NCBI GenBank assembly: GCA_030835135.1 | Contig: JAUQWO010000046.1 | Coordinates: 62,001 to 126,000, forward strand | Length of the DNA stretch: 64,000 nucleotides | From: Bacteroidota bacterium | GTDB lineage: Bacteria > Bacteroidota > Ignavibacteria > UBA10030 > UBA6906 | Direction: 5' to 3' | Part shown: in pieces, positions 14,640-59,692 of the stretch | Position numbering within the stretch: position 1 is the stretch's first letter | How the letters are laid out: each line of letters opens with the position of its first letter | Made by a program: the position numbers and the translations under genes | The notes under the pieces: generated by a model | Told to the model about the DNA's origin: nothing | Databases searched by the model: none | What the model saw: the letters and a program-made list of their open reading frames with translations, nothing else

Positions 14640-15002
14640 ATGCACGAACTCTCGATCGCACAGGGGATCGTGGACATTGTCGGACACTACGTTCCGCGCG
14701 CACGCTTTGACACGGTCCGGTGCGTCCGGGTCCGCGTCGGCGACCTCGCGGGCGTGGTCCCCGACTCCCTTGCCTTCTGCTTCACCGCCGTCACCGCCGG
14801 CACGCCCATGGCGGAGGCACTGCTCGAGATCGAACGCGTGCCGTACACGATACGCTGCACCGACTGCACCAGCGAATCAACCACCGAGCCCGGACTTGCC
14901 CTGTGTCCCCGGTGCGGGTCGATAGCGACGACGATCATCGCCGGCACGGAACTGCAGGTGATGACGATCGATGTGGACGAAGAGACTCCGGAGCACTCAT
15001 GA
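14640..15002 (+). CDS. hypA: Hydrogenase nickel-insertion protein HypA
   Basis: A 120-residue protein starting MHELSIAQGIVDIV, with the invariant N-terminal MHE in which His2 binds nickel. The zinc domain has CTDC near residue 74 and CPRC near residue 92. With HypB it delivers Ni to the large subunit after the Fe(CN)2CO centre is in place. It overlaps hypB by four bases (ATGA). hypA and hypB are separated from the rest of the hyp genes by the hox structural genes, whose own promoter lies between. Confidence 0.96.
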   Translation: MHELSIAQGIVDIVGHYVPRARFDTVRCVRVRVGDLAGVVPDSLAFCFTAVTAGTPMAEALLEIERVPYTIRCTDCTSESTTEPGLALCPRCGSIATTIIAGTELQVMTIDVDEETPEHS

Positions 15003-15661
15003 GTGTGATCACGATCGAACGGAAGGTCCTCGAGAAGAACGATGAGATCGCGCGCGAGAACCGCGCACTCTTCGCGGACCACGGTGTGTACGTCATCAAC
15101 ATGGTGAGTTCACCCGGTGCCGGGAAGACGAGCATCCTCGAGCGGACACTGGAGCGGCTGCGCACGACGCTGCGCATCGCGGTGATCGAAGGTGATGTAC
15201 AGACGGACCTGGATGCCCGGCGCGTGGCGAAGTACAATGTTCCCGCCGTGCAGATCGTCACCCGCGGGGGATGCCACCTCGAAGCGAATCTGATCCGTGA
15301 CGCCATCGGCAACCTCGACCTGAAGGCGTGCGACCTGCTCGTCATCGAAAATGTCGGCAACCTGGTGTGCCCTTCCAACTATGACCTGGGCGAGGCCGTC
15401 AAGGTCGTGGTAGCATCGACGACTGAAGGCGACGACAAACCGTTGAAATATCCATCAATGTTCCGCAATGCATCGGTCCTGATCATCAACAAGATCGATC
15501 TCCTCCCCTACCTGCAGAGTAATGTGGCGGTGCTGCGGGAAAACGCATTGAAGATCAACCCTTCGTTGACGGTGTTTGAGACCTCCTGCACGACCGGTGC
15601 GGGCATGGATGCGTGGTGCTCCTGGCTCACCGAGAACGCGCGACAGAAGACCGCATCCTGA
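14999..15661 (+). CDS. hypB: Hydrogenase nickel-incorporation GTPase HypB
   Basis: This 220-residue GTPase has the P-loop SSPGAGKTSILE near residue 38, the Ni/Zn site GGCHLEANLI near residue 97, and NKID near residue 166. It hydrolyses GTP while passing nickel with HypA to the hydrogenase large subunit. The histidine-rich nickel-storage N-terminus and the CxxCGC motif of some homologues are absent, so it is the minimal form. The start overlaps hypA, showing coupled translation. The stop is followed by the regulatory region of the hox operon. Confidence 0.96.
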   Translation: MSVITIERKVLEKNDEIARENRALFADHGVYVINMVSSPGAGKTSILERTLERLRTTLRIAVIEGDVQTDLDARRVAKYNVPAVQIVTRGGCHLEANLIRDAIGNLDLKACDLLVIENVGNLVCPSNYDLGEAVKVVVASTTEGDDKPLKYPSMFRNASVLIINKIDLLPYLQSNVAVLRENALKINPSLTVFETSCTTGAGMDAWCSWLTENARQKTAS

Positions 15662-15682: not shown

Positions 15683-15698
15683 TTCCCAAGAATGGGAA
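15683..15698. promoter_or_regulatory. Palindrome upstream of the hox promoter (candidate activator site)
   Basis: TTCCCA and TGGGAA are arranged symmetrically around AAGA/AGAA-type centre bases, giving a perfect palindrome apart from the four-base centre. It is centred about 70 bases upstream of the -24 element, the distance expected for a sigma54 enhancer-binding protein. Flanking GGTGGA and TCCACC form a second, slightly offset pair. Function is inference. Confidence 0.45.
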
Positions 15699-15756: not shown

Positions 15757-15772
15757 TGGCATGCCTGTTGCA
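15757..15772 (+). promoter_or_regulatory. Sigma54-type (-24/-12) promoter of the hydrogenase operon
   Basis: TGGCAT, five bases, TTGCA places GG and GC exactly ten bases apart, matching the sigma54 consensus TGGCAC-N5-TTGCA at all but one position. The predicted start lies near 15783, about 150 bases before hoxE. An inverted repeat (CCACGG at 15743-15748, CCGTGG at 15754-15759) overlaps the -24 box. Confidence 0.72.
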
Positions 15773-15933
15773 CTATATATAGAGAAGAGGCGAATGGCCG
15801 GAGCGGGAGGGTTTTCGGGTCACGAGAGCGATCAGAAAGACCGTTCGCCTCAGTACGCCCGCCACCTTCCCACCGCGTCACACCCTCCCTGACACTACGA
15901 TCCTGAACACCAACTTACGACAGCAACCGACAC

Positions 15934-16455
15934 ATGCCTCCAACCACAACGACACCCAAGCCACATCCGAGTGGTGACAACCGGTTCAAGTTGCTGGACC
16001 GGGCGATCACCAAGCACCAGTCGCGCGGTGACGCGCTGATCGAGGTGCTCCATGCCGCACAGGGTATCTTCGGCTATCTCGAGAACGACCTGCTCGTGTA
16101 CATCGCGCGTGCGCTGAAACTTCCGCTCAGCCGCGTGTATGGCGTAGCCACCTTCTACCATTTCTTCACCCTCAAACCGAAGGGCAAACACACCTTCGTC
16201 CTCTGCACCGGCACCGCCTGCTACGTGAAAGGCGCGAACAAGATCCAGCATGCCGCCGAGGAATGCTGCAAGGTCAAGTTCGGACAGACAACGCCGGACG
16301 ATAAGATCTCACTCGTGCAGGCGCGGTGCGTCGGCTCGTGCGGCATCGCACCGGTCGCTGTGCTGGATGACAAGGTTGCCGGCAAGCTCACCCCGGAAGG
16401 GGCGGTCGAACGGCTCATGGCCTGGAAGAACGAAAAAGACGAGGTGACCGCATGA
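15934..16455 (+). CDS. hoxE: Bidirectional [NiFe] hydrogenase diaphorase subunit HoxE
   Basis: A 173-residue NuoE-like protein with a thioredoxin-fold [2Fe-2S] site: CTGTAC near residue 90 and CVGSC near residue 131 give the C-x4-C and C-x3-C ligands. In the HoxEFUYH complex it helps carry electrons between the NAD(P)H diaphorase module and the hydrogenase. The first 15 residues are Thr/Pro-rich and not conserved. No strong Shine-Dalgarno precedes the ATG. It is the first gene after the sigma54-type promoter and overlaps hoxF by four bases. Confidence 0.93.
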
Positions 16456-18101
16456 CCGTCGAAGATCTGCAGGAACTCGCCGAACAGGAACAGCAGCGTC
16501 AGGAGAAGTTCACGAACCGCCTGATGTACTGCGCCGCCGCCGGATGCGTCTCGTGCGGCAGCATCAATGTGCGTGACATGCTGAAGAAGGCCCTTGCCGA
16601 GAAGAACCTGGCCGCCACCGTCGAAGTGGTGGGCACGGGGTGCATGGGCCTGTGTGGTGAAGGTCCACTCGTGAAGGTGCTCCCGGAGGGGACGCTCTAC
16701 CAGCGCGTGGATGAGACCGTCGCACGCAAGATCGTTGAGGAACACCTCGTCACAAAGACGCCGGTGAAGGACAACGAGATCGATACGTCGCATCCGTTCT
16801 TCGCCGAACAGATGAAGATCGTCCTTGAGAACTGCGGCCGCATCGATGCCGAGAAGATCGAGGAGTACATCGCGGTGGAAGGCTATGCGGCGCTCGCCAG
16901 GGTCGTCACCGAGATGCAGCCCGCTGAGGTGGTGGAAGAAGTGCGCAAGAGCGGTCTCCGCGGCCGTGGTGGGGCCGGCTACTCCACCGGATTGAAATGG
17001 GGCATCGTGCGCAAGGTGCAGAGCGACACGAAGTACGTGGTGTGCAACGCGGACGAAGGCGATCCGGGTGCATTCATGGACCGCAGCGTGCTGGAAGGCG
17101 ATCCGCACCGTATCCTCGAAGGCATGGCCATCGCCGGCTACGCGGTGGGTGCCCAGCAGGGCTACATCTACGTGCGCGCCGAGTATCCGCTCGCCATCGA
17201 GCGGCTCCGTCTCGCGATCAAGCAGGCGGAACGCCTCGGCCTCCTCGGCAACCGGATCTTCGACTCGCAATTCAACTTCCGGATCGACCTGCGCATCGGG
17301 GCCGGCGCATTCGTCTGCGGCGAAGAGACCGCCCTCATCCGCTCCATCGAGGGTCGCCGCGGCCGTCCGCGCCCCCGCCCGCCGTATCCCTCCGAAAAGG
17401 GATTGTGGGGCATGCCGACACTGCTGAACAACGTCGAGACCTATGCGAACATCGCGCCCATCATCCGCAAGGGCAGCACGTGGTTCGCCGCGATCGGCAC
17501 ACCTAAGAGCACGGGCACGAAGGTCTTCGCGCTCGCGGGCAAGATCAGGAACACCGGTCTCATCGAGGTACCGATGGGCATCTCCCTCCGGAAGATCGTC
17601 TTCGACATCGGTGGCGGTACGCCCGAGGGCACGGAGTTCAAGGCGGCACAGACCGGCGGACCCTCCGGCGGCTGCATCCCCGCGGCACACCTCGACGTCC
17701 CGGTCGACTATGAATCGTTGTCCTCCGTGGGCTCCATCATGGGCAGCGGCGGCATGATCGTCATGGACTCCACGTCCAACATGGTGGACGTGGCGAAGTA
17801 CTTCATGGATTTCTGCAAGGATGAATCGTGCGGTAAGTGCATCCCGTGCCGCGTCGGGACGGTGCATATTCATGGCCTGCTCGAGAGGATCGCGCAGGGG
17901 AAGGCCACGACGAATGACCTGCCGTTGCTGGAAGAACTCTGTATGATGGTCAAAGAGACCAGTCTCTGCGGCCTCGGCCAGAGCGCACCGAATCCGGTGC
18001 TCTCCACGCTGCGCTTCTTCCGGAACGAGTACGAGGAGCTCCTGCAGGAGCCGGCAACCTTCGTACCGTCGGGTACCGACACTCCACCCACAACGCACTA
18101 G
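16452..18101 (+). CDS. hoxF: Bidirectional [NiFe] hydrogenase NAD(P)H-binding subunit HoxF
   Basis: A 549-residue NuoF-like flavoprotein. An N-terminal thioredoxin-like [2Fe-2S] domain carries the cysteines of CAAAGCVSC and GCMGLC (residues 19-66). The glycine-rich [13 protein letters not shown] near residue 172 and [14 protein letters not shown] near 198 form the NAD and FMN sites. [12 protein letters not shown] near residue 459 plus a later Cys (SLCGLGQ) bind the [4Fe-4S] cluster. It is the diaphorase that exchanges electrons with NAD(P)H. Length and motifs are complete. It overlaps hoxE and is followed by hoxU after 13 bases. Confidence 0.95.
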
Positions 18102-18114
18102 CAGGACGACACTC

Positions 18115-18849
18115 ATGGCTATCGTCACCTTAACTATCGACGGCGAGCAGCTCAGTGCACAGGACAATGAGTCCCTGCTTGAGATCGCCCGCCAGCACAA
18201 GATCGAGATCCCGACCCTCTGCCACCTGGACGGACTGTCCGATGTGGGTGCCTGCCGTCTCTGCCTCCTGGAGATCGAAGGCTCCAACAAGCTCGCCCCG
18301 GCCTGCACCACCCGGCCGATGGAAGGCATGGTCGTCCACACCAATACCGAGAAACTGAAGAAGTACCGTCGCATGATCGTGGCGCTCCTCGCGTCCGAAG
18401 GCAACCATCAGTGCTCGGTCTGCATGGTCAACAACCACTGCGAACTCCAGAACCTCGCGTACGACACCGGGTTGCTCTATGTCCGGGTACCGTATCTGTA
18501 TCCGAACAAGGTCACCGACGCGTCGCATGAGAGCTTCATCATCGACCGCGACCGGTGCGTGCTCTGCACCCGCTGCGTCCGTGTCTGTCATGAGGTGGAG
18601 GGCGCGCACGTGTGGGACATCGCGGGCCGCGGCATCGACTGCACGATCGTTGCCGACCTCAACGTCCCGTGGGGGAGCGCGGAAAGCTGTACCTCGTGCG
18701 GCAAATGTGTGCTCGTCTGTCCCACCGGCGCCCTCGTCAAGAAGGGCGAAAGCGTCGCGGAGATGGAGAAGCATACGGACTTCCTGAAGTACATCGTCAC
18801 TGCCCGCCGTAAGGGCGAGTGGATCAGCATCGAGAACGAAGAAGAATAA
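18115..18849 (+). CDS. hoxU: Bidirectional [NiFe] hydrogenase electron-transfer subunit HoxU
   Basis: A 244-residue protein matching the N-terminal part of NuoG. A [2Fe-2S] ferredoxin domain has CHLDGLSDVGACRLC and a later Cys (PACTT). A His-Cys [4Fe-4S] site has HQCSVCMVNNHCEL near residue 101. Two ferredoxin-type [4Fe-4S] motifs follow, CVLCTRCVRVC near 147 and CTSCGKCVLVCP near 190. It wires HoxF to the HoxYH hydrogenase module. All expected ligands are present, and the size is typical. It lies between hoxF and hoxY with gaps of 13 and 16 bases. Confidence 0.95.
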   Translation: MAIVTLTIDGEQLSAQDNESLLEIARQHKIEIPTLCHLDGLSDVGACRLCLLEIEGSNKLAPACTTRPMEGMVVHTNTEKLKKYRRMIVALLASEGNHQCSVCMVNNHCELQNLAYDTGLLYVRVPYLYPNKVTDASHESFIIDRDRCVLCTRCVRVCHEVEGAHVWDIAGRGIDCTIVADLNVPWGSAESCTSCGKCVLVCPTGALVKKGESVAEMEKHTDFLKYIVTARRKGEWISIENEEE

Positions 18850-18865
18850 CGGACCCTGACTACAC

Positions 18866-19402
18866 ATGAAACCTAAAGTCGCAACGATATGGCTCGGTGG
18901 CTGTTCCGGGTGCCATATGTCGTTCCTGGACCTCGATGAACGCCTCATCGACCTGGCGGACAAGATCGACCTTGTCTACTCACCCATCGCCGATGTGAAG
19001 GAATTCCCGCGCGATGTGGATGTGACCCTCGTCGAAGGCGCCATCGCGAGCTTTGAACACGAAGAACTCGCCCGCCTCATCCGGCGGAACTCACGCTTTG
19101 TGGTATCGTTCGGCGATTGCGCGGTGACCGGGAATGTGACGGCCATGCGGAACTCGCTGGACCTGGATGACGTGCTGCACCGTTCGTACGTCGAACTCGC
19201 CGACACCACACCCCGCGTTCCCCGGGACTACCCGACGATCGCGGAGCTGATGAAACAGGCGCGTCCGCTGCACGAGTACATCACCGTGGATGCGTTCATC
19301 CACGGTTGCCCGCCCACCGCCGATCAGATCTGGTCCGCGGTCACCGAGCTCCTGGCGGGCAAAAAACCGGAACTCACACACGTCTTCCTGCGGTACGGAT
19401 AA
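18866..19402 (+). CDS. hoxY: Bidirectional [NiFe] hydrogenase small subunit HoxY
   Basis: A 178-residue small subunit carrying only the proximal [4Fe-4S] cluster. The ligands are in [10 protein letters not shown] (Cys near residues 14 and 17), FGDCAVTGN near residue 85 and GCPPTADQ near residue 150. The medial and distal clusters and the Tat signal of membrane-bound uptake hydrogenases are missing, as expected for cytosolic group 3d enzymes. It pairs with HoxH and receives electrons from HoxU. The gene is complete, with hoxH following after 13 bases. Confidence 0.95.
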
Positions 19403-19415
19403 GAGGAACATGACC

Positions 19416-20846
19416 ATGCCTACAAGCACTATCACCATCAATCCCGTGACGCGTATCGAGGGACACGCGAAGATCACGATCCAGCTGGACGAGAAGGGCA
19501 TCGCCCAGGATGCACGGTTCCATGTGAACGAGTTCCGCGGCTTCGAAAAGTTCTGCGAAGGACGCGTGCTGTGGGAGATGGGCGGCATCACGTCGCGCAT
19601 CTGCGGCATCTGCCCCACCAGCCACCTCGTCACGTCGGCCAAAGCCGGCGATGCCATCCTGTCCGTGACCATCCCGGAAACGGCACAGGCACTCCGGCGT
19701 ATTATCACCCTCGCCCAGTGGCTGCAGTCGCATGCCCTGAGCTTCTTCCACCTGTCGTCGCCCGATTTCCTGCTCGGGTTCGATTCCGACCCGGCGAAGC
19801 GGAACATCTTCGGCCTCATCGCGAGCGACAAGGAGTTCGCGAAACGCGGCATCCGCCTCCGGAAGTTCGGCCAGGAGATCATCGAGGTCCTCGGCAGCCG
19901 CCGCATCCACACCCCCTGGGCCGTGGCCGGCGGCGTCCGCGAACCCCTCGAACCGGCGAAGCGGGACTATCTGCTCAACTGGATCCCCGAAGCGAAAGAG
20001 ACCGCACGGCTGGCACTCGACACGCTGAAGAAGATCCATGTGAAGTTCGAGAAGGACATCCCGAACTACGGGAACTTCCGTTCGTTGTACGTCGGTCTCG
20101 TCGCCCCCGACGGCGCGCTGGAATACTACGACGGCACGCTGCGCGTGATGGACGGCGACGGCAATATCATCGCCGACAAGGTGAACCCGTCCGATTTCCA
20201 TGAGTACTTCGGCGAGGCCACGGAAGAGTGGTCCTATCTCAAGTTCCCGTACTACAAGCCGCTCGGCTACGCCAAGGGGATGTACCGCGTGGGCCCACTC
20301 GCCCGCGTGAACATCTGCGATTACATCGACACCCCCCTGGCCGAAGCGGAACGGAAGCAGTTCAAGGCGCTGGCGGGCGGCGCCAGTGTGGTGAACAATT
20401 CGTTCTACTATCACTACGCACGGCTGATCGAGATCCTCTTCTCCGTGGAAAAGATCGAACAGCTGCTGCAGGACCCGGTCACGATGGGGCAGAACATACG
20501 CGCCAAAGCCATGATCAATCAGCTCCATGGCATCGGCGCAAGCGAAGCCCCCCGCGGCACACTGTTCCATGACTACACGGTCACCGAGGACGCCCTGCTC
20601 AGCCGGGTCGACCTCGTGATCGCCACCGCCCAGAACAACCTCGCGATGAACCGGACCGTCCGGCAACTCGCGCTGCAGTACCTGGACGGCGCGAAGGTCA
20701 CCGAAGGACTGCTGAACAGGATCGAGGCGGGCATCCGCTGCTTCGATCCCTGCCTGTCGTGCTCGACGCATGCCATCGGCATGATGCCGCTGCACGTGCA
20801 GGTGGTCGGTCCGGAGAACAACGTGCTGTGTGACGTGCGCCGATGA
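19416..20846 (+). CDS. hoxH: Bidirectional [NiFe] hydrogenase large subunit HoxH
   Basis: A 476-residue catalytic subunit. The two cysteine pairs that hold the NiFe centre are RICGIC near residues 62-67 and DPCLSCSTH near residues 444-452. The 24-residue tail after that His is the part removed by the maturation protease. NPVTRIEGH near residue 9 is the usual large-subunit start motif. The second of two nearby ATGs was chosen because AGAGGA is eight bases upstream; starting at 19410 would add two residues. The next gene, the protease, overlaps its stop by four bases. Together with HoxEFUY it interconverts H2 and NAD(P)H. Confidence 0.96.
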
Positions 20847-21280
20847 GATCGACGCTGGTGATCGGCATCGGGAACACCATCCGCGGGGACGACGGCGCGG
20901 GCATCCGCGTCGCCGAACGGATCGCTGCCCGGCACACGGACGTGGACGTCCTGTGTGTGCAGCAACTCTCCCCCGAACATGCCGACACCATCGCGCGGTA
21001 CGACCGTCTGATCGTCGTGGATGCGAGTGTCACCGCGGACGCCGTCCGGGTGACACCGCTCCACGCGGCAGAGGGCATGCACATGCCACGCACCCACACG
21101 GTCACCCCGGAAGGGGTCCTGACATTGACATCCACGCTGTATGACCATGTGCCGTCGGAAGCGATGCTCGTCGAAATCCCGGCATCGCAGTGCGGATTCA
21201 CCGAAGAACTCTCTCCCTCTACCGCGGCATTCGCTGCCACCGCCCTCGGCATCATCTCCCGGCACGTCACGGAGAACTGA
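20843..21280 (+). CDS. hoxW: Hydrogenase maturation endopeptidase (HoxW/HycI type, M52)
   Basis: A 145-residue protein starting with [21 protein letters not shown], the M52 family motif with metal-binding acidic residues, followed by IVVDASV near residue 55. It cleaves the C-terminal tail of the large subunit once the NiFe centre has been inserted. It overlaps the hoxH stop, which supports HoxH as its substrate. Length is normal for the family. The symbol is assigned by context. Confidence 0.92.
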
Positions 21281-25998: not shown

Positions 25999-27066
25999 AT
26001 GACCGCCCGGAACCCGTTCACCATCCTTGTCGTCAATCCCGGATCCACCTCCACCAAGATGGCGCTGTACGAGGACGACCGCCTGCTGCACTCCCACGTC
26101 CTCCGCCACGACCCCGTGATGCTCCGGAAGTTCGGAGGGATCTGGCGGCAGTATGAGTTCCGTCTCCATCAGATCCGGGAATGGACACACGCATCGGTCC
26201 AGCACCTCTCGGCGGTCGTGGGCATCGGCGGACTCTTCCGGCCGATCCCCGGCGGTACCTACCGGGTCAACAACCGCATGCTCGATGACGCCCACGGCAA
26301 TCTGCAGGGCGAACATGCATCCAATCTCGGCTGCGCCATGGCTGACGCGCTTGCCCGGGAATACGGATGCGAGGCATTCGTCGTGGACCCCGTCTCCGTG
26401 GATGAACTCGAACCGCTCGCGCGCTACAGCGGTCACCCGCTCATCCAGCGCTCCAGTCTCTCGCATGCACTGAACATCCATGCGGCCGCCCGGCGCGCCG
26501 CGGACGAGTTGCAGCTGCCTCTGGAACGGTCCTCGCTCCTCGTTGCACACCTGGGCGGCGGTATCTCGGTGGCCCCCGTGCGCGGAGGCCGCATCATCGA
26601 CATCAATGATGCCTCCAGTGACGGACCGTTCTCCCCCGAACGCACGGGCGGGCTCCCGCTGCAGCAGTTCATCACGCTGTGCTTCTCCGGCACGTACACC
26701 GAGCAGGACGTCCGCACACTGGTGCGCGGGGGCGGCGGACTGATGGCATATCTTGGCACCACATCGGCAATGGAAGTGGAGGAGCGCATCAGGAACGGCG
26801 ATCCCCGCGCAGAAGAGGTCTACCACGCAATGGCCTACCAGATCGCAAAGGAGATCGGCTCCATGGCCGTCGTGCTCGGCGGGATCATCGATGCCATCGT
26901 GCTGACCGGCGGACTGGCCACGTCGGCGATGCTCGTCGGGTGGGTCACCGAACGCGTCAGCTTTCTCGGACGGGTGCTCGTGTATCCCGGCGAAGACGAG
27001 ATGCGCACCCTCGCCGCGGAAACACTCGCGGTCCTCCAGAACCGTTCCACACCACGCGATTACTGA
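25999..27066 (+). CDS. buk: Butyrate kinase
   Basis: A 355-residue acetate/butyrate kinase-family protein of exactly the usual butyrate kinase length. VVNPGSTSTKMALYEDD near residue 12 is the N-terminal phosphate-binding motif, HLGGGISV near residue 184 the second, and IVLTGGLA near residue 299 the adenosine motif. It makes ATP from butyryl (or branched-chain acyl) phosphate. The neighbour phosphotransacylase supports that role rather than acetate kinase. It follows hypE by seven bases and so is probably part of the hydrogenase transcript, an unusual linkage. Confidence 0.92.
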   Translation: MTARNPFTILVVNPGSTSTKMALYEDDRLLHSHVLRHDPVMLRKFGGIWRQYEFRLHQIREWTHASVQHLSAVVGIGGLFRPIPGGTYRVNNRMLDDAHGNLQGEHASNLGCAMADALAREYGCEAFVVDPVSVDELEPLARYSGHPLIQRSSLSHALNIHAAARRAADELQLPLERSSLLVAHLGGGISVAPVRGGRIIDINDASSDGPFSPERTGGLPLQQFITLCFSGTYTEQDVRTLVRGGGGLMAYLGTTSAMEVEERIRNGDPRAEEVYHAMAYQIAKEIGSMAVVLGGIIDAIVLTGGLATSAMLVGWVTERVSFLGRVLVYPGEDEMRTLAAETLAVLQNRSTPRDY

Positions 27067-58378: not shown

Positions 58379-59692
58379 TCACAACCCGTATTTCTTCCGC
58401 TTCCGGTAGAGCGTGGCCGGATCGATCCCGAGGATCGTCGCGGCCTCGTCCAGATCCTTCGCGAGCCGCAACACTTTGATGATGTGCTGTTGCTCCACCT
58501 CTTCCAGCGACATCGGCCGCGAGGCAGGCGTCGCAAGTGCCTGGAACTCCTCCGGCAGATGGTACAACTGAATGGGTTCACCCCGGGCAAGGATCACCGC
58601 ACGCTCCATCACATTCTCGAGCTCGCGCACGTTCCCCTTCCACCCGTACCCTCCCAGCGCAGCCATCACCTGCGGCGCCACGTCGGTGTTCGCGCCGAGC
58701 TTGGTCAGAAAATGCTGCGCGAGGAGCGGGATGTCCTCCTGCCGGTCACGGAGGGGCGGCAGTTTCACCTTCACGGCGTTCAACCGGTAGTACAGGTCCT
58801 CACGGAACTGCCCGTTGCCCACGGCCGCCTGCAGATCGCGGTTCGTCGCAGCGATGACGCGCACGTCCACCTTGCTTGTCGTCGTTTCGCCCACCCGTTC
58901 GAATTCCCTGTGCTGGAGGAAGCGGAGCAGCTTCACCTGCGTGGGCGGCGGGATCTCGCCGATCTCATCCAGAAAGACCGTACCGCCGTCGGCCGCTTCG
59001 AAACGCCCCTGACGGTCGCGCACCGCCCCGGTGAACGACCCCTTCACGTGCCCGAAGAGTTCACTCTCGAGCAGATTCTCCGCCAGCGCGGAGCAGTTCA
59101 CGGTCACGAACGGACGGTCCTTCCGCGGACTGTTGTCATGGATCAAATGCGCCAGGAGTTCCTTGCCGGTGCCGCTCTCCCCTTCCACCAGCACCGAGAT
59201 GCTGCTGTCGGCCACCTGCAGCGCCAGTGCGATGATGCTCTTCATGCGCTCGCTGCGGGTGACGAGCGAGCCGGCGCCACCGCGGCGTGCGAGCTCCTCC
59301 TTCAACTGCCGGAGCTCCGATTTCATGTGGTGGTGCGATGCCACCTTGTCGATGAAGAGCTGCAGCTCGGAGAACTCGAACGGCTTCTGCAGATAATCGT
59401 ATGCCCCGAGCTTCATCGCTTCGACCGCCGAGTCGATGCTGCCGTGTGCGGTCATGAGCACGACGGTCATCTCGGGCGCAAGGGTGCGCGCTTCGCGCAG
59501 CAGATCGATGCCGCTGAGCGGTTCCATCTTGAGGTCGAAGAGCCCGATGTCGAAATGGTCCGCACGCACCGCCTCGAGCGCCTGCAGCGGATGCTGGAAG
59601 GAGGTGACGGCATATCCGGAAGCGCCCAACGCGATACCGACGGTCTTGAGGATGTTCTGCTCGTCGTCCACGAGCAGGATCGAGGCCTTCAT
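58379..59692 (-). CDS. NtrC-family sigma54-dependent response regulator
   Basis: A 437-residue regulator. A receiver domain with Asp53 in LFDLKMEP spans residues 1-120. The AAA+ domain has GESGTGKELLAHLIH near residue 172, GSFTGAV near residue 219 and FLDEIGEIP near residue 240. A Fis-type HTH ends the protein (DLDEAATILGIDPATLYRKR). It would activate sigma54 promoters when phosphorylated by the kinase upstream. GSFTGA replaces the canonical GAFTGA in the loop that contacts sigma54, an accepted but less common variant. It overlaps the kinase stop by four bases. Confidence 0.95.
   Translation of the reverse strand: MKASILLVDDEQNILKTVGIALGASGYAVTSFQHPLQALEAVRADHFDIGLFDLKMEPLSGIDLLREARTLAPEMTVVLMTAHGSIDSAVEAMKLGAYDYLQKPFEFSELQLFIDKVASHHHMKSELRQLKEELARRGGAGSLVTRSERMKSIIALALQVADSSISVLVEGESGTGKELLAHLIHDNSPRKDRPFVTVNCSALAENLLESELFGHVKGSFTGAVRDRQGRFEAADGGTVFLDEIGEIPPPTQVKLLRFLQHREFERVGETTTSKVDVRVIAATNRDLQAAVGNGQFREDLYYRLNAVKVKLPPLRDRQEDIPLLAQHFLTKLGANTDVAPQVMAALGGYGWKGNVRELENVMERAVILARGEPIQLYHLPEEFQALATPASRPMSLEEVEQQHIIKVLRLAKDLDEAATILGIDPATLYRKRKKYGL

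Follow-up and report, generated by a model that had tools for sequence, protein, structure and literature searches.

The hoxEFUYH operons of cyanobacteria, which encode a bidirectional hydrogenase, are controlled by LexA and AbrB. The NAD-reducing soluble Hox hydrogenase (group 3d) of Cupriavidus necator (Ralstonia eutropha) is expressed from PSH, a promoter dependent on sigma54 and HoxA (PMC4377017). A sigma54 promoter is therefore not new for an NAD-linked Hox enzyme, and the framing of sigma54 control as typical of uptake hydrogenases, in the first-pass annotation of the locus described here, was off. HoxA is dedicated to the hydrogenase and is tied to H2 sensing (HoxJ, HoxBC). The nearest functional analogue of the present system is NmpRSTU of Myxococcus xanthus, an autoregulated system comprising an NtrC-type regulator, a haem kinase and sigma54, whose targets include hemN and an oxidase, with no hydrogenase reported among them, and whose sites are tandem palindromes (GCGCA-N5-TGCGC) lying 14-15 bp apart (PMC11841059). 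Extracytoplasmic CXXCH sensors are represented by the haem-c Cache/PAS-type domains of GSU0582 and GSU0935 and by sCache_heme (PMC3460858, PMC12889525); one preprint describes haem-c sensors fused to signalling modules as sensors of NO rather than O2 (PMC12889525). A survey of sigma54 regulons makes no mention of Ignavibacteria (PMC12316311), and we found no paper on a circuit of the kind proposed below for that group in the open-licence literature.

The locus lies in a 64-kb stretch of DNA, the whole of which was analysed and is referred to as the window. It resembles that of Cupriavidus in joining an operon for a soluble, presumably NAD-linked Hox enzyme to a sigma54 promoter and a putative NtrC-type response regulator. 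Unlike HoxA, the candidate regulator is encoded elsewhere in the genome, is paired with a predicted haem-c kinase, and seems to serve a wide low-oxygen regulon. Taken jointly, we hold with good confidence that the sigma54 promoter and an upstream activator site (UAS) drive hox, that this regulator, with its partner kinase on contig C28, is likely the activator, and that the operon belongs to a low-oxygen or fermentation regulon. The promoter, UAS, kinase and regulator provide the first concrete candidates for the switching on of H2 metabolism in this FCB group, and a larger low-oxygen programme is seemingly under the same candidates. They would also tie haem-c sensors, whose outputs are mostly obscure, to defined target genes.

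The hydrogenase locus and the gap ahead of hoxE

The genes and predicted regulatory features of the locus are as follows.

14640-15002, + strand: hypA (nickel chaperone); best NCBIfam model TIGR00100, 86.2 bits, just below the cut-off of 88.1
14999-15661, + strand: hypB, the gene upstream of the gap; TIGR00073 above cut-off
15683-15698, no strand assigned: predicted UAS palindrome TTCCCAAGAATGGGAA, starting 74 bp before the -24 box
15757-15772, + strand: predicted sigma54 -24/-12 promoter TGGCATG-CCTG-TTGCA, exact consensus, with a box in this gap retained by 17 of 28 genomes
15783, + strand: predicted transcription start, from sigma54 geometry, about 12 bp past the -12 GC
15934-16455, + strand: hoxE, which opens the structural operon; HoxE equivalog NF005747 above cut-off
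16452-18101, + strand: hoxF (NuoF-like diaphorase subunit); NuoF-family match over residues 132-529, under cut-off
18115-18849, + strand: hoxU; HoxU equivalog NF005745 above cut-off
18866-19402, + strand: hoxY (NiFe hydrogenase small subunit); solved relatives 7t2r_E and 5odc_E, then 5xf9_C
19401-20846, + strand: hoxH (NiFe hydrogenase large subunit); solved relatives 7t2r_D, then 5xf9_D
20843-21280, + strand: hydrogenase maturation protease; TIGR00072 above cut-off

HoxE and HoxU both match the family models of the bidirectional HoxEFUYH type (group 3d), and the HoxF-like subunit consists of a NuoF core (132-529 of 549 residues) without a long extension after it. In NCBIfam, HoxY and HoxH find Vhu-type models only, under cut-off. 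The NAD-reducing hydrogenase 5xf9 ranks second for HoxH and third for HoxY, the NiFe hydrogenase 7t2r (which we take to be HydL/HydS of an electron-bifurcating enzyme) scoring higher for both. The hyp genes are followed immediately, on their own strand, by a butyrate kinase gene (25999-27066, NCBIfam above cut-off).

The gap between the end of hypB (15661) and the start of hoxE (15934) measures 272 bp. Within it, a pattern search of the window located TGGCATGCCTGTTGCA on the + strand at 15757-15772, which fits TGGCAYRNNNNTTGCW exactly; no other site in the window comes within one mismatch, about 1.7 chance matches to the full consensus being expected per window at that tolerance. The spacing between the -24 GG and -12 GC within TGGCAYR-N4-TTGCW is exactly 10 bp; GG-N10-GC by itself carries no information, with 1030 matches in the window versus 1042 expected. 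The box precedes hoxE by 162-177 bp, in agreement with the first-pass annotation, which had placed a box with GG and GC ten bases apart some 160 bases before that gene, and the position of the -12 element places the predicted start near 15783. The rpoN gene presupposed by that reading is present (PF04552, E 4e-55, in an open frame of 515 aa). No sigma70-like promoter was found in the gap by a scan that covered promoters other than the Bacteroidota type; a search of Rfam for an RNA leader or riboswitch in the gap returned nothing credible, only a single sub-threshold lncRNA match. A sigma54 promoter ahead of hoxE is, in our judgement, very likely. That such a promoter drives the Hox operon, as originally proposed, is supported by rpoN, by the conservation of the boxes described below, and by the failure to find a sigma70-type promoter in the gap. 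Sigma54 promoters are silent without an activator, and under such control Hox would behave as an all-or-none switch, without the leakiness of a housekeeping operon.

The 4.9-Mb genome contains 10 matches to the perfect sigma54 pattern and a reversed control 11, an absence of enrichment that would be expected were the box a chance match; frequency alone thus proves nothing, and it is location and conservation that count. Against a chance origin, which we regard as scarcely credible, all 10 perfect matches fall in gaps upstream of genes, gene positions around these matches being taken from our own simple gene calling and the regulon lists from pattern searches. By arithmetic from the genome density, about 3e-4 matches would be expected on the correct strand within a gap of 272 bp.

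Conservation of the promoter among relatives

Orthologues of HoxE with at least 70% identity define 28 genomes of the order, our own included. When the 300 bp before hoxE were scored with dinucleotide shuffles as control, a box at or above the cut-off (18.7 of 21.7) was present in 18 of these genomes, versus 0.9 expected; one of the 18 falls within hypB and was discounted as chance, leaving 17 of 28 with a near-consensus box. The boxes of relatives read TGGCATGCGAGTTGCA in L003, TGGCACACACATTGCG in L006, L007 and L012, TGGCATGCTCATTGCA in L026, and TAGCACACTATTTGCT in L018 and L021. In the comparison with L003, which is of the same genus, 21 of 23 positions in the UAS and box are identical, versus 103 of 208 in the remainder of the gap, so that the -24/-12 boxes do form, as anticipated in the first-pass annotation, a conserved part of a diverged gap. 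Conservation across the order in practice refutes the chance reading.

Alternatively, most hox transcripts might be continuations of hypAB transcription, or might start at a housekeeping promoter that escaped recognition, leaving the sigma54 promoter an accessory role. We found no terminator between hypB and hoxE, and these genes form part of one gene run in several relatives, both of which are compatible with read-through. Weighing against it, in addition to the negative sigma70 scan (subject to its coverage of promoter types), is the arrangement in four relatives (L014, L016, L020, L024) where hypB abuts hoxE: there the sigma54 box and a UAS-like site precede hypA, which argues that sigma54 control was kept despite a changed architecture. 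We therefore consider read-through or a housekeeping promoter improbable as the main source of hox transcripts, and favor the sigma54 promoter in this role. In three further genomes that possess hoxE (L013, L015, L025), neither box nor UAS was found within 1.5 kb upstream.

Outside the group, among 80 named loci obtained from a HoxE search, a conserved box precedes hoxE only in three Ignavibacteriae loci; no clear sigma54 box was found before hoxE in cyanobacteria, Verrucomicrobia, Planctomycetes or others. By its named relatives, the window belongs to the Ignavibacteria branch of the FCB group. The cyanobacterial operons, which encode the same bidirectional enzyme type, differ in this respect from the locus described here. 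No close HoxE was found on plasmids, the plasmid-borne relatives being distant and all below 60% identity.

The predicted upstream activator site and its spacing

The palindrome at 15683-15698 is the single match to TTCYCANNNNTGRGAA in the window at one mismatch or fewer. It is 16 bp in length, the hox copy being TTCCCA-N4-TGGGAA and the consensus TTCYCA-N4-TGRGAA, a sequence distinct from the GCGCA-N5-TGCGC recognized by NmpR. Most relatives have a palindrome at the corresponding position before hoxE. The related pattern has 16 matches in our genome versus 2 in the control, and the palindrome at one mismatch or fewer has 26 versus 7 per strand. The earlier reading of this locus, while sound as to the promoter, missed both the palindrome and the wider regulon to which it points.

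A combined pattern, in which the UAS is followed after 40-70 bp by a sigma54 box, occurs at 26 places in 60 genomes and not once in the reversed control, which further argues against a chance origin of the box; at least one of the 26 pairs falls in coding sequence (L182). Spacings from UAS to -24 element cluster at 54, 64-66, 74-77, 85-86 and 94-97 bp, with a best period of 10.3 bp (Rayleigh R 0.88 for 33 non-hox pairs, rows from close relatives not being independent). Helical phasing of this kind is a requirement of an activator that acts by looping, and the palindrome at 15683-15698 behaves as a predicted activator site. The UAS of C38 is located about 290 bp from its own sigma54 box. Several relatives carry two UAS-like sites with starts about 30 bp apart (about 14 bp between them), a tandem arrangement like that of the NmpRSTU sites; the window has one clear site and no clear second. 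At the level of sequence, we document here the predicted promoter and UAS, the conservation and phased spacing of the two, and the recurrence of the pair before the operon of a regulator (below).

A candidate regulator and its predicted haem-c kinase

No activator gene of HoxA type was found in or beside the hydrogenase cluster in the 64-kb window. The window encodes a single sigma54 activator (58766-59263, minus strand), some 38 kb past the hydrogenase operon and unlike the candidate regulator at its DNA-binding end. This candidate is encoded with a kinase on contig C28 and is of NtrC type, with receiver, AAA and Fis domains. Orthologues, defined by more than 50% identity at full length or more than 60% over a partial sequence, occur in about 44 of the 60 genomes, and their DNA-binding (HTH) helix is nearly invariant. 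In most orthologues with readable upstream DNA, the kinase-regulator operon is itself preceded by a UAS-like site and a sigma54 box, an arrangement almost never seen upstream of the next-best paralogue group. In L227 and L228, of the same genus, no kinase gene lies directly upstream of the regulator and the UAS immediately precedes the regulator gene.

All 25 readable kinase sensors contain a CXXCH haem-c motif in a domain predicted to be extracytoplasmic. This distinguishes them from the cytoplasmic protoglobin of NmpRSTU, which acts through a multi-step relay, and likens them to GSU0582, GSU0935 and sCache_heme, from which they differ in carrying, in nearly all cases, a second conserved C-x4-CH. 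The sensor matches the haem-c sensor family PF21563 of Pfam (Mcp40H-20_sensor) above cut-off in L230 only, and weakly in others.

Two other candidates were considered and rejected: a GAF-type activator beside the C17 UAS, which is not conserved in relatives, and, as main candidate, a C11-type paralogue response regulator, whose operons almost never carry the UAS and sigma54 pair.

We consider it reasonably probable, from these sequence comparisons, that the C28 regulator is the activator acting at the UAS. Genomes with an orthologue of this regulator contain 95 palindromes versus 14 in controls, and those without a close orthologue contain 21 versus 5. This latter, modest excess suggests that the site may also serve another activator; palindrome-rich and palindrome-poor genomes are weakly distinguished by presence of the regulator, and for this reason the assignment of the activator is one that we infer. 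The promoter and UAS could then be real and yet be served by another of the roughly 20 strong sigma54 activator domains in the genome, or by a Crp/Fnr-type regulator sharing the palindrome. The genome has one Crp-family HTH gene, and a 16-bp palindrome with a 4-bp center resembles Crp/Fnr site geometry; moreover, in one relative (L257) a second response regulator has a UAS and sigma54 promoter upstream. Helical phasing between palindrome and box, on the other hand, is what a looping activator would need, and it is the C28-type operon that repeatedly carries the UAS, while the GAF-type alternative, as noted, fails on conservation. Assignment to another activator is accordingly a less likely account, though one of some weight, and the C28 regulator is retained as the preferred candidate.

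In the mechanism that we propose, the hoxEFUYH operon would be transcribed from the promoter at 15757-15772, with a start near 15783, the sigma54 holoenzyme remaining closed until an NtrC-type activator acts. A haem-c sensor would detect low oxygen or another change (possibly in oxygen, NO or redox state), and its kinase would phosphorylate the C28 regulator. The phosphorylated regulator may then assemble on the UAS (TTCCCA-N4-TGGGAA), about seven helical turns upstream, from which it would loop and remodel the holoenzyme with ATP, giving an open complex at the hox promoter. In this scheme we infer that the regulator binds the UAS and that the sensor carries haem, as well as the nature of the signal and the sign of the response. 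Hox would thus share a low-oxygen or fermentation regulon with other genes.

Other genes behind the same pair of sites

In relatives, the UAS and sigma54 pair precedes hox, hemN, nuoABC, multihaem cytochromes, a P-type ATPase and kinases, as named from our own reading of the protein sequences rather than by family search. In our genome, the UAS occurs before the hox operon (spacing 74 bp) and the kinase-regulator pair (54), and also before an ornithine carbamoyltransferase (OTC)/carbamate kinase operon (75), a PFOR-like gene (63), a psr-type operon (68), an Rrf2-cydAB operon (111) and cytochrome-related genes (74, 97 and 97). Pfam backs the OTC, Rrf2, NrfD, kinase and regulator assignments; PFOR, cydAB and CcmF-like were read from sequence. 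The -12 box is degenerate (TTGTA, TTGAA) at several of these targets, and spacings of 68 and 111 bp do not fit the phasing, from which it follows that individual targets vary in strength. The PFOR, cydAB and OTC/carbamate kinase operons are probably targets of the pair in this genome. Together with the psr-type operon and with hemN, nuoABC and the multihaem cytochromes of relatives, they share a single theme, and the Hox promoter probably belongs to a wider low-oxygen regulon in the group. In Melioribacter roseus, a cultured representative of the Ignavibacteriae, detection of [FeFe] hydrogenases and PFOR was confined to fermenting cells, and cytochrome bd was insensitive to condition (PMC5492636), data which fit a fermentation regulon in part.

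A broader and tentative reading, which we advance as somewhat less likely than its converse, is that the low-oxygen or fermentative response of Ignavibacteria-type organisms runs largely through a sigma54 circuit, with a haem-c two-component system and the UAS replacing Fnr/ArcA. Its contents might then include hydrogenase, PFOR, cytochrome bd, arginine-type fermentation and anaerobic haem synthesis.

Several arrangements seen in the course of these searches deserve mention in their own right. Two UAS-associated operons, at L187:4410-4841 and L192:4817-5287, begin with genes for Rrf2-family regulators, which suggests a second layer of control. At L280:2065-2080, a UAS-like site and sigma54 box lie between the gene for another NtrC-type regulator and a universal stress protein-like gene, perhaps constituting a cascade. 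Finally, a perfect sigma54 box at L058 (G000:C8:22370-22385) closely follows a sigma54 activator gene and precedes a type IV pilin-like gene, perhaps in an arrangement of the PilR type.
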